Shown here in pieces: positions 30,191 to 39,584 of a stretch of DNA of 64,000 nucleotides. The notes beneath the pieces were generated by a model. It was not told the origin of the DNA and ran no database searches. It was given only the letters and a program-made list of their open reading frames with translations. Source of the DNA: Armatimonadota bacterium (GTDB taxonomy: Bacteria > Armatimonadota > Fimbriimonadia > Fimbriimonadales > Fimbriimonadaceae); the NCBI GenBank assembly GCA_016789105.1, contig JAEURN010000004.1:186001-250000 (forward strand), written 5' to 3'. Each line of letters begins with the position of its first letter. Position 1 is the stretch's first letter. Position numbers and translations under genes: made by a program.

Positions 30191-31024
30191 TCACAGTTCC
30201 GTCCTGACTGACCAGAGTTCGGGGAATAGCCTGATGTTCACAGCTTGCCGAAGGAACGGCACCCCGGATGATCCGCCGGTGCCGGTTTTGAACCCAATAA
30301 TGCGTTCCACAGTGAGCATATGGCGGACCCGCCACAACGTGAACTGCTCTTCGATGTCAATCAGTTTTTCCGCCATTTCATAGGAGTCCCAATTCACCGG
30401 GGGGTCGGAATAAATCTCTCGGAAGACTTGGGTGATCTCGGGATTTGCTTGGTACGGTTGGGAAAAATCCCGGTTAGCGGCCGAATCGGGGATGGCAAAG
30501 CCCCTGCGTTTGAGGAACAAAAGGAACTCGTCGTAAAGGCTCGGCGCGTGCAACGTTTCCGTCAGTTCTTGGAATATGGCAGCGTTGTGTTTAAAGACGG
30601 AAACGGATTGGGGGTCTTTGTTTCCCAAAAGGAACTCGATGGTGCGGAACTGGTGGGATTGGAATCCGGAAGCCCTCCCAAGAACGCCTCGGAACTGGAC
30701 GTATTCGCTTGGGGTGAGGGTTTGCAAAACGGCCCACTGTTCAAACAGCATTCGCTGGACATGTTTGACCCGGGCCAGGATTTTGAAGCATGGGCTGAGT
30801 TCGTCGCGCTGCACGTGGCCGATGGCGGCCCGCAATTCGTGGATCACGAGCTTCATCCAGAGCTCAGAAGTCTGATGCTGGATGATGAAGAGCATCTCGT
30901 CGTGGTGAACGGGGTTGGAGAGAGGTTCTTGGGCGGCCAGGATGCGGTCAAGCCGCAAGTAACCGCCGTAATCCATCCGGTCGGCAAAGTCTTGATGGAT
31001 GGTGGGCTCGAACGGCCGGGACAT
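30191..31024 (-). CDS. kynA: Tryptophan 2,3-dioxygenase
   Basis: A 277-residue heme dioxygenase opening the indole ring of tryptophan to N-formylkynurenine. Family landmarks: the substrate region [30 protein letters not shown] (near 42-60), [19 protein letters not shown] (near 117-135), and the late [24 protein letters not shown] (near 230-253) containing the heme-ligand histidine and the TGGSSG loop. Length and order match bacterial KynA. It is followed by the kynureninase-like gene. A weak TAAAAC seven bases before the ATG might be a leaderless-type promoter. Confidence 0.95.
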
Positions 31025-31150
31025 GGCTGGGGTTTTACCTGCGGATTTGCCCGTGGAATTACGCTAGTATTTTTACCTGGTGCGACAGATCGTCCTGGAT
31101 TGGGTCACTCCCCGGGGGCAAACTGCCCGATTTTCGAGGGAAATCCCGCA

Positions 31151-31179
31151 TTGAAGTTCCGGCGGGGCCGGGTGATACT
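31151..31179 (+). promoter_or_regulatory. Candidate promoter TTGAAG-N17-GATACT
   Basis: Two four-of-six hexamers at the ideal 17-base spacing. They predict transcription from about 31186 into the inverted-repeat-rich region that follows. Confidence 0.35.
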
Positions 31180-31185
31180 ATCCCT

Positions 31186-31710
31186 GTCGTTGGGAGGAGC
31201 TTGACGGCAACCTTGAAAAGAGAGTGGAGTCAGTCGATCCGGCAGGAGCGCAATTGACGAGAGGAGCGGTGCCAACTGTGGCATCCAACGCTCCTTGCCG
31301 GTCGACTTCACCGAAAGCCCATGTGGCTCAACGGGAATGGATTGAAAAGGAATCCGCAGCGCTAGACGCTGGGGAGTCCTGCACAAGACAGGACGTGAGC
31401 AAACAGCACAAACCTCTCCGATGGCCGGCGATTGTTTTCCTCGTCGCCGGTCGCTTTTTCCCGGTTTGGGCCGGAAAAAAGCGAAACATCTGATTGGTGG
31501 GCTTTCGCCCTCCACCTCGAATCAAAACGCCGGGTTCATCGATCCCGGCAAGAGCACAAACTCAAACCGATGGCACGTCAGGTTGGATCCTTGTGTCCAT
31601 CGGTACGATTATATCAGGCCCTTGCCCCGCCAAGTGTTGGGTTGGGCCGGTAATCGTACGGGGATTGAGCAAAAGAAGTTGGATTGCTGGAACGGCATTC
31701 GTTCTGGCGG
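31186..31710 (+). ncRNA. Candidate large structured RNA, not identified
   Basis: The 791 bases between kynA and the HAF-like gene (31025-31815) hold no credible reading frame: the open frames have composition unlike neighbours and no family motif. Instead successive perfect or near-perfect inverted repeats follow one another: 31233-31306 (outer GTCGA/TCGAC and CCGGCA/TGCCGG, inner GGAGCG/CGCTCC), 31339-31355, 31357-31371, 31376-31394, 31425-31450, 31452-31483, 31499-31510, 31529-31549, 31567-31603, 31604-31658 (TACGATTA/TAATCGTA around GGCCC/GGGCC) and 31686-31708. The strand is assumed from the candidate promoter and the downstream gene. I tested by eye for RNase P, tmRNA, SRP RNA, group II intron and common riboswitches without a match. 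It could also be a long leader of the gene at 31816. Confidence 0.35.
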
Positions 31711-31815
31711 CGGCATGACCGCGCAAAGAGAAGAGCAAAACCGGGGCAGCGGGACAGGCTGCCGAGGCGTGGGTTGGGAAACCGGCCCCGTTTGCCCTTT
31801 CTGATTAAGGATGCA

Positions 31816-32736
31816 ATGAGTTTTGGGATGAACATCGAGCGAAGCTGGAATCGGATCGGTCAAGGCGCCTTGGAAGGCTGGTCTTGGTCGGTGCCGTTGG
31901 GCTTAACCGGGGAGCTGGTCGCCCCGGTTGCGGTGGTCGGCGACACGATTGCCGCAACAGCGACATCCCTTCGCGATGGTTCGGCGCGGGCCGTATTGGT
32001 TTCGGGAGACGCCGTCACCATTGAACTCGAAACGGGAACTTATGTCGCGGCGGGGGCACCGGGAACCTATGTCGTCGGCATGGTGGGCTTTGGCAAAGGG
32101 GGCTTCCGCTTGACGATAGAGGGGGGGAGACACATATTGCCCCTTCCTGCAGGAGCCGAAAGCATGGACATCGATTGCGTCAACGGCTCTGGCATGGTCG
32201 GGGGTTCGGCAGAAATCCGTGGAATCGAATGCGCGGCGGTCTGGTACCCGGATGGGGTGGACGTGATGCCGGAATTCAAGCGTGTCACGGCCATTGGAGA
32301 AAGTGGCGCGATCATGGCCATCAGCCGGAACGGGCATCCGGCACACGTTGCCAAGGGCTCGACTTTCGCGACGCCTGGGTGCGCGATTTCTGTCAACGGA
32401 GTTGGCGATGCCTTGGTCAACGCAGGCGGCTCCATTTCCGTTTGGCGCGAATCCGGTGGGATCGAAGCGGTCCCTATCCGTGGTTACGACCGCGCCACGG
32501 CGATCGGTTGGTCCGCTTCGGGAACGATTTTGGGCTTTGGCGTCGCCAAAACGGGTTTGGTTCAACACTGGCTTTATGACCCACGGCTCGGGTTGACCGT
32601 TCTGAGCGGTCAGGAGATCCATCCTGGCTTGACGATCAAAGAAGTCTCCGCGATCGGGAGTTCTGGCACATTGGCCGGAACCGCGGTGACTCAAACCGGC
32701 CGGTTCCTTGTCCGCCTGGATCCGCCGACACCTTAG
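31816..32736 (+). CDS. HAF-repeat-like beta-rich protein
   Basis: A 306-residue protein starting at ATG 31816 (behind TTAAGGATGCA; AAGG may serve as a weak Shine-Dalgarno; the frame is open from 31684). It has no signal peptide. Repeated units of the type AIGxSGxxxAxS (VTAIGESGAIMAIS, ATAIGWSASGTILGFG, VSAIGSSGTLAGTA) resemble HAF-type extracellular repeats that build a beta-propeller-like structure. Function is unknown. It lies downstream of the structured intergenic region and ends in a four-base TTAG overlap with the convergent LuxR-PAS gene. Confidence 0.6.
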   Translation: MSFGMNIERSWNRIGQGALEGWSWSVPLGLTGELVAPVAVVGDTIAATATSLRDGSARAVLVSGDAVTIELETGTYVAAGAPGTYVVGMVGFGKGGFRLTIEGGRHILPLPAGAESMDIDCVNGSGMVGGSAEIRGIECAAVWYPDGVDVMPEFKRVTAIGESGAIMAISRNGHPAHVAKGSTFATPGCAISVNGVGDALVNAGGSISVWRESGGIEAVPIRGYDRATAIGWSASGTILGFGVAKTGLVQHWLYDPRLGLTVLSGQEIHPGLTIKEVSAIGSSGTLAGTAVTQTGRFLVRLDPPTP

Positions 32737-38802: not shown

Positions 38803-38845
38803 ATCCCCTGGCTTGTAACCGGCCTCTTTCCTAGTGCGTCTTGAT

Positions 38846-38867
38846 AGATACGAAACGTTACGTATCT
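38846..38867. promoter_or_regulatory. 22-base near-palindrome upstream of the ECF sigma factor gene
   Basis: AGATACG and CGTATCT arms flank AAACGTTA; the full 22 bases match their reverse complement except one pair. It lies 79-100 bases before the ATG at 38946, a plausible operator. Confidence 0.55.
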
Positions 38868-38881
38868 AAACGTCCCAGTCG

Positions 38882-38910
38882 AGGAACTCCCGTGCCTGGC
38901 ACGGTGTTCC
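38882..38910 (+). other. 5' leader hairpin of the sigma factor gene
   Basis: GGAAC...CCGTGC and GCACGG...GTTCC can form a stem-loop in the leader; CCGTGC (38890-38895) and GCACGG (38899-38904) pair exactly around CTG. A role in expression is conjecture. Confidence 0.4.
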
Positions 38911-38945
38911 TACCTGCAGAATCTCAACCAGGAGACGAAGAAAAC

Positions 38946-39536
38946 ATGTCCAGCATCCATCTTGAAACTTCCGAACCGCTCGACTTCCAACAACTGATGG
39001 AGAAGAGCTACAAGAAGGTTTTCAACTTGGCGTATCGGCTGAGTGGAAACCGGAGTGACGCTGAGGACTTGACTCAGGAAGCTTTTTACCGGGCGTTCCG
39101 CAAGTTCGACACATTTCAAGGTGACCGCCCCTTTGAAAACTGGATTTTCCGGATTGTGACGCGGTTGTTCTTGGACATGAAGCGGGCGCGCAGCCGTCGG
39201 GTGCAAACCGTGAGCAGCGATGCCCCCCTGCGGGCCGACGGGTACGACGACACGGTGAGTTTTGAAGCCCCGGATGACCGGCCGACGCCATCGCAGGCGT
39301 TGGTTGGGGATACGCTGAGCGAGGAGTTGGAGCATGGCTTGTCTCACCTGACCGAAGACCAGCGGGAATTGGTTTGGCTTGCCGACGTGGAAGGATTGCC
39401 CTACGATGAAATCGCGGTCAAGTTCTCGGCCCCGGTCGGGACGATCCGGAGCCGCCTGCACCGGGCCCACAAGCAGCTGCGGCGAATTCTGGAACAAGTC
39501 CAGAACAAGACGCATGTTTGCGGCGGCTTTGCCTGA
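38946..39536 (+). CDS. ECF sigma factor
   Basis: A 196-residue sigma-70 family factor of the ECF type. Region 2 (about 15-85) includes VFNLAYRLSGNRSDAEDLTQEAF and the DNA-melting part FENWIFRIVTRLFLD; a Pro/Asp-rich linker (about 90-125) follows; region 4 (about 130-185) has the helix-turn-helix VEGLPYDEIAVKF and VGTIRSRLHRA. ATG 38946 is preferred although the frame opens at 38841, because the GGAG at 38931-38934 and the region 2 start fit. No anti-sigma gene is adjacent, which is unusual for this class. A palindrome and a leader hairpin lie upstream, and a strong terminator follows. Confidence 0.9.
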   Translation: MSSIHLETSEPLDFQQLMEKSYKKVFNLAYRLSGNRSDAEDLTQEAFYRAFRKFDTFQGDRPFENWIFRIVTRLFLDMKRARSRRVQTVSSDAPLRADGYDDTVSFEAPDDRPTPSQALVGDTLSEELEHGLSHLTEDQRELVWLADVEGLPYDEIAVKFSAPVGTIRSRLHRAHKQLRRILEQVQNKTHVCGGFA

Positions 39537-39544
39537 ACCTATCC

Positions 39545-39584
39545 AAAAAGAGCCCCCAGGGTGAACCTGGGGGCTCTTTTCTTT
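39545..39584 (+). terminator. Intrinsic terminator after the sigma factor gene
   Basis: AGAGCCCCCAGG/CCTGGGGGCTCT stem with a five-base loop, followed by TTTTCTTT. Confidence 0.9.

Follow-up and report, generated by a model that had tools for sequence, protein, structure and literature searches.

A large structured RNA predicted between kynA and a beta-propeller gene in a single genus of Fimbriimonadaceae (Armatimonadota)

The question raised by this locus was whether an apparently empty gap beside kynA encodes a functional RNA, and what such an RNA would do for the gene downstream of it. The gap lies in the window, a stretch of 64,000 nt from a Fimbriimonadaceae (Armatimonadota) genome of the same genus as 'Armatimonadetes bacterium Uphvl-Ar1', whose genome paper is PMC5629041. 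The original prediction described the gap as gene-free and rich in inverted repeats, and indeed kynA (minus strand) ends at 31024 and the following open reading frame (ORF) starts at 31816, or at 31828 by homology. The order across the locus was kynU-kynA, the RNA, the propeller ORF, a LuxR-PAS gene (minus strand) and an M61 peptidase gene, with the following main features:

30191-31024, minus strand: kynA (tryptophan 2,3-dioxygenase), left border of the gap
31025-31827: gap region, between kynA (minus strand) and the plus-strand ORF
31151-31179, plus strand: promoter-like pair, TTGAAG (31151-31156), 17 nt, GATACT (31174-31179), start expected near 31187
31187-31790, plus strand: the entire predicted structured RNA, by fold z-scores in six species and covariation
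31828-32736, plus strand: propeller ORF, predicted acidic beta-propeller of 302 aa
32733-33512, minus strand: LuxR-type HTH and PAS protein (Pfam PF00196 and PF08447), convergent with the propeller ORF

The 5' end of the RNA (31187) was placed from the promoter and the 3' end was set past the last conserved hairpin; the transcript may extend into the ORF beyond 31790. We conclude with high confidence that this element is a functional RNA that is real, new, genus-restricted, large and structured.

The case for an RNA was carried by the folding-energy test and the aligned core. The segment 31187-31790 folded far below shuffled controls (z about -6.5), with -278.6 kcal/mol for the plus-strand transcript from its likely start against about -235 in shuffles, and z-scores of -6.2 with 20 shuffles and -6.6 with 60. 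The 162 bases upstream, including the promoter, gave a z of about 0 in the window, so that the score jumped at the promoter from about 0 to -6.6. Across the six species that carry the element, plus-strand z-scores were -6.6, -8.3, -10.0, -8.4, -6.3 and -11.5, the segment from kynA to the presumed RNA start stayed near 0 in all six, and the minus strand folded less well than the plus strand in five. For the core by itself z ranged from -4.2 to -7.1, and for the 5' domain by itself from -0.9 to -5.2.

Hairpin density, which had been put forward as far above that of the other gaps in the window, was high without being unique. Counting perfect hairpins with arms of at least 6 and loops of at most 50 within 31233-31708 yielded 13, against 5.6 ± 2.2 in shuffles (none of 200 reached 13); however, among 267 tiles from the rest of the window 3 likewise reached 13, so the count alone does not single out the region. 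Among 639 tiles of 200 nt in the window, the five consecutive tiles starting from 31201 to 31601 ranked 6, 32, 10, 5 and 23, while flanking tiles (starts 30901-31101 and 31701-31801) had ordinary ranks. The best tile (39401) was explained by an intrinsic terminator at 39551-39580, AGAGCCCCCAGG/CCTGGGGGCTCT followed by TTTTCTTT, which lies behind a sigma-factor gene (38841-39536) and folds better than any other spot in the window; canonical terminators are therefore in use in this genome.

A DNA search recovered the region in five more species of this genus, with identical gene order in each. We thus describe a predicted plus-strand structured RNA of about 600-740 nt between kynA and the propeller gene in six species, the structure resting on six distinct sequences, two of them nearly identical. 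A covariance model of the core matched six genomes at one locus each in searches of 85 family, 113 order and 291 phylum genomes, and no relative was found beyond the genus among the 291. One extra weak match (20 bits, genome G194) was dismissed as an unrelated hairpin. A pattern scan over GTDB genomes returned five records, all of the same genus, and none among viral contigs; phages and plasmids likewise yielded no relative, and no report of such an RNA was found in the literature on Armatimonadota RNAs. The aligned core contained these features:

31374-31615, plus strand: aligned core, 34 pairs in four helices, 92% paired over six species
31376-31394, plus strand: helix P4, GTCCTG/CAGGAC, 36 of 36 cells paired, changes of the G-U type
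31405-31424, plus strand: motif copy 1, AGCACAAACCTCTCCGATGG, 19 of 20 bases identical in six species
31423-31452, plus strand: helix P5 around the invariant loop GTTTTCCTCG, all 9 pairs kept (100%) across the six species
31453-31482, plus strand: helix P6 (the CGCTTTTTCCCGG hairpin), both-side changes in six pairs

Compensatory substitutions were found in the relatives, with nine pairs changed at both sides, and the covariation score of the aligned core was reached by none of 500 shuffles, while all slid versions of the alignment failed. The clearest helix was P5, whose arms read GGCCGGCGA/TCGCCGGTC, GGCCGGCAC/GTGCCGGTC, GGCCGACGA/TTGTCGGTC, GGCCGACAG/CTGTCGGTC and GGCCGGTGG/CTGCCGGTC around the loop GTTTTCCTCG, and which held three pairs with both-side change (GC/AU; AU/GU/GC; AU/CG/GC). 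The G-U pairs in P4, P5 and P6 would be A-C mismatches on the other strand, which indicated the plus strand as the folding strand.

These results bear on two readings that require no RNA. A gene for a small protein, or a coding gene that evolves rapidly, with the hairpins incidental in the DNA, would be in keeping with the presence of some ORFs of 80-150 codons; yet no reading frame was conserved across the relatives, short matches occurred in all six frames with none favoured, the core varied in length by non-multiples of three (79-99 nt), and both fold z-scores and covariation were RNA-like, making a coding gene highly improbable. An element acting at the level of DNA, such as protein-binding or mobile-element palindromes, would account for the inverted repeats, and we give it just as little credence, as the plus-strand helices are kept through G-U pairs, the element is single-copy at one locus per genome, and phages and plasmids showed no match.

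Outside P4-P6, conserved motifs and helices extended across the remainder of the RNA:

31232-31307, plus strand: helix P1 of the 5' domain (31232-31250/31289-31307), enclosing GAGAGGAGC and P1b
31259-31267, plus strand: conserved single strand GAGAGGAGC, inside P1
31268-31274/31279-31285, plus strand: small hairpin P1b, inside P1
31357-31371, plus strand: hairpin P3, directly 5' of GAGTCCTGC, 5-7 pairs in six of six species with unrelated sequences
31413-31418 with 31259-31264: candidate long-range pseudoknot, CCTCTC with GAGAGG
31529-31549, plus strand: helix P8, GCCGGG/CCCGGC, replaced by GCTGGA/TCCAGC in three relatives and by other perfect stems in two
31553-31603, plus strand: motif copy 2, AGCACAAACTCAAACCGATGG, and helix P9, the motif being present in six of six species
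31567-31573/31597-31603: helix P9, CCGATGG/CCATCGG, full or with 5-6 pairs in five species, bulged in G001
31607-31615, plus strand: conserved strand GATTATATC in four species, TATTATATC in G007 and GATTGTAGC in G002
31647-31662, plus strand: bulged hairpin P10, CC-G-GTA-ATCG-TAC-G-GG, overlapping the species-specific TAATCGTA arm
31771-31788, plus strand: last hairpin P12, GGGTTGG/CCGGCCC, 7-11 pairs in six of six species

The hairpins named in the original prediction all lay at the coordinates given there, and the stems CCGATGG/CCATCGG, GCCGGG/CCCGGC and CGCTTTTT/AAAAAGCG were conserved in relatives. Its headline hairpin, TACGATTA/TAATCGTA, proved to be species-specific and absent from the relatives, in which the bulged hairpin P10 is conserved instead; P10 (CC-G-GTA-n4-TAC-n-GG) occupied RNAalifold columns 894-909, and several species showed changes on both sides of its stem. 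P1, P1b, P3, P8 and P12 recurred at matching places with differing sequences, and no column-by-column score is possible for them. For P1, a like fold was predicted from single sequences in five species with largely differing arms, and G001 may rearrange the outer helix. When a strict test scored the longest uninterrupted Watson-Crick helix, the result was weak in several individual species for P1, P3 and P12, with P3 above shuffles in just three of the six; bulges and G-U pairs within these helices explain part of this.

Among the single-stranded elements, GAGAGGAGC was found again, in a less regular form, close to the 3' end, and AGCACAAAC followed by CCGATGG formed an invariant motif in two copies. 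The sole variable base of motif copy 1 is C/T, and the CCTTTC of G001 would still pair through G-U. Since the GAGAGG/CCTCTC pairing hardly varies, covariation cannot prove it, and the pseudoknot is put forward as a candidate. In G001 (L037 4572-5580), which has diverged furthest among the relatives, four CACAAA elements occur where 0.4 are expected; one of them, near the 3' end (GAGAGGAGCACAAACAGG), fuses the two conserved single-strand motifs.

The promoter proposed upstream of the RNA held up across the genus, as TTGnAN-17-GATACT or TATCAT occurred with a spacing of exactly 17 nt in six of six species. A strict sigma-70 scan did not report the pair at 31151-31179. We infer that the RNA is transcribed from this promoter. 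Between kynA and the promoter, the block TTACGCnAGTATTTTTACC (31059-31080) recurs in similar form in four or five of the species and may serve kynA as a minus-strand promoter or operator. At the 3' end, no proper canonical U-run followed P12; in a terminator scan of the window, G001 and G006, P12 was terminator-like in G006 alone. The distance from P12 to the ORF was about 25-60 nt, leaving little space for another promoter, and the bases in between were not conserved.

The downstream gene had been labelled a 'HAF-repeat' gene, a label that Pfam and NCBIfam did not support, as no family from either was found for its product. The AlphaFold2 model (mean pLDDT 89.7) and Foldseek matches, which were propellers, place the product with high confidence as a predicted beta-propeller. 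The protein evolves fast (20-41% identity), has a pI of 4.5-5.4 and lacks an obvious signal peptide. General RNA binding would be unlikely for an acidic propeller, which disfavours a dedicated ribonucleoprotein partner.

In two further species of the genus, G003 and G004, kynA directly adjoins the M61 peptidase gene (loci L042 and L043), and no match to the RNA, the propeller gene or the LuxR-PAS gene was found anywhere in either genome. Because all three are missing together, they behave as one module. In the kynA tree, G003 and G004 were sister to the window's group (support 90/85), and the RNA-bearing G001 and G002 appeared, though not firmly, to branch deeper; a joint loss of the RNA, propeller and LuxR-PAS genes in G003 and G004 would be the simplest reading.

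The proposal of a long noncoding RNA or large leader was borne out in so far as compensatory changes were present, a conserved frame was absent and no Rfam family matched the window or four relatives at gathering or lax thresholds. Three weak matches were set aside as chance. As had been suggested, the element is not RNase P RNA, which this genome encodes on another contig (G000:C8), the model finding no match here. Rfam covariance models including OLE, ROOL, GOLLD, raiA and HEARO had no match, and models of defence systems gave no credible match. A CsrA-type sponge was rejected, with 13-21 GGA sites seen against 16-20 expected and hence no excess.

By size and style, the closest kind would be the large ornate RNAs such as OLE, ROOL and GOLLD, although membership by model match is lacking. 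Known ornate RNAs are of like size (PMC12286853). OLE (PMC12286853) is similarly a large structured RNA of about 580-600 nt with dense conserved helices, but it has other motifs, occurs in another phylum and has no Rfam match here. ROOL and GOLLD (PMC12286853) are likewise large, ornate and of unknown function, but no sequence or model match and no phage relative linked them to the window RNA. The raiA motif RNA, also a large structured bacterial RNA, differs in gene context and had no model match. Riboswitches and long 5' leaders resemble the window RNA in having their own promoter, one same-strand ORF downstream and no strong terminator before it; in contrast to riboswitches, the window RNA is several times longer than typical, has a single gene context and has no recognisable expression platform. 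The size range and density of structure would suit a divergent representative of one of the known families (RNase P, tmRNA, group II intron, OLE, raiA or a riboswitch), but this is improbable given the lack of an Rfam match in the window or four relatives, even at lax limits, the RNase P RNA elsewhere in the genome, and the two species of the genus that manage without the RNA.

The sequence would fit either a leader or an independent RNA, and the RNA itself is a predicted transcript. The favoured reading, with chances about even, is a cis-acting RNA that forms the 5' part of the transcript of the propeller gene. Transcription would begin at the conserved promoter and, as there is no canonical terminator and scant space for a second promoter, would continue through the RNA into the propeller ORF, which very likely relies on that promoter. 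The GAGAGG strand in the 5' domain would then pair with CCUCUC of the core, and the paired fold would set the extent of elongation or translation into the propeller protein, with a ligand or protein as the trigger. This reading was suggested by low fold energy in six species starting sharply at the promoter, by compensatory changes and the conserved helices P1-P12, by the 17-nt-spaced promoter and the synteny and strand shared with the propeller ORF in all six, by the joint absence of the RNA, propeller and LuxR-PAS genes in two species, and by P12 lacking a canonical terminator though the genome has one at about 39551-39580. Counting against it, a search for an alternating structure that masks the start codon or the ribosome site gave none, the bases from P12 to the ORF lack conservation, and a leader of 600-740 nt would be exceptionally long.

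A close rival, somewhat short of even chances, is a free-standing ornate RNA acting in trans, like OLE, ROOL or GOLLD, with the propeller gene merely a linked partner. The folded RNA would then be the product, possibly assembling into a multimer by way of its GAGGA and UCCUC strands, or working together with proteins. Its size and helix density fit the ornate class; the core (P4-P6, AGCACAAACCTCTCCGATGG and loop GTTTTCCTCG) is better conserved than the adjoining protein; P12, present in all six species, could end or protect the RNA, with the one terminator-like match in G006; and GAGAGGAGC and the loop GTTTTCCTCG are complementary invariant elements. However, a canonical terminator is missing in most species, the RNA always lies right upstream of the one ORF on the same strand (six of six), and it occurred nowhere else in any searched genome. 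At a slightly lower probability, the RNA may constitute a new ornate class of one Armatimonadota genus, a machine or multimer held together by GAGAGGAGC with CCUCUCC / UUUUCCUCG and accompanied by a dedicated propeller and LuxR-PAS regulator.

Large structured bacterial RNAs are few, and every new class so far has been informative. The window RNA has no catalogued relative, and its host phylum is poorly studied. With a structural model, natural deletions in two species and a linked pair of proteins at hand, its role is directly testable, and the finding indicates that genus-limited RNA classes are discoverable by reading one genome.
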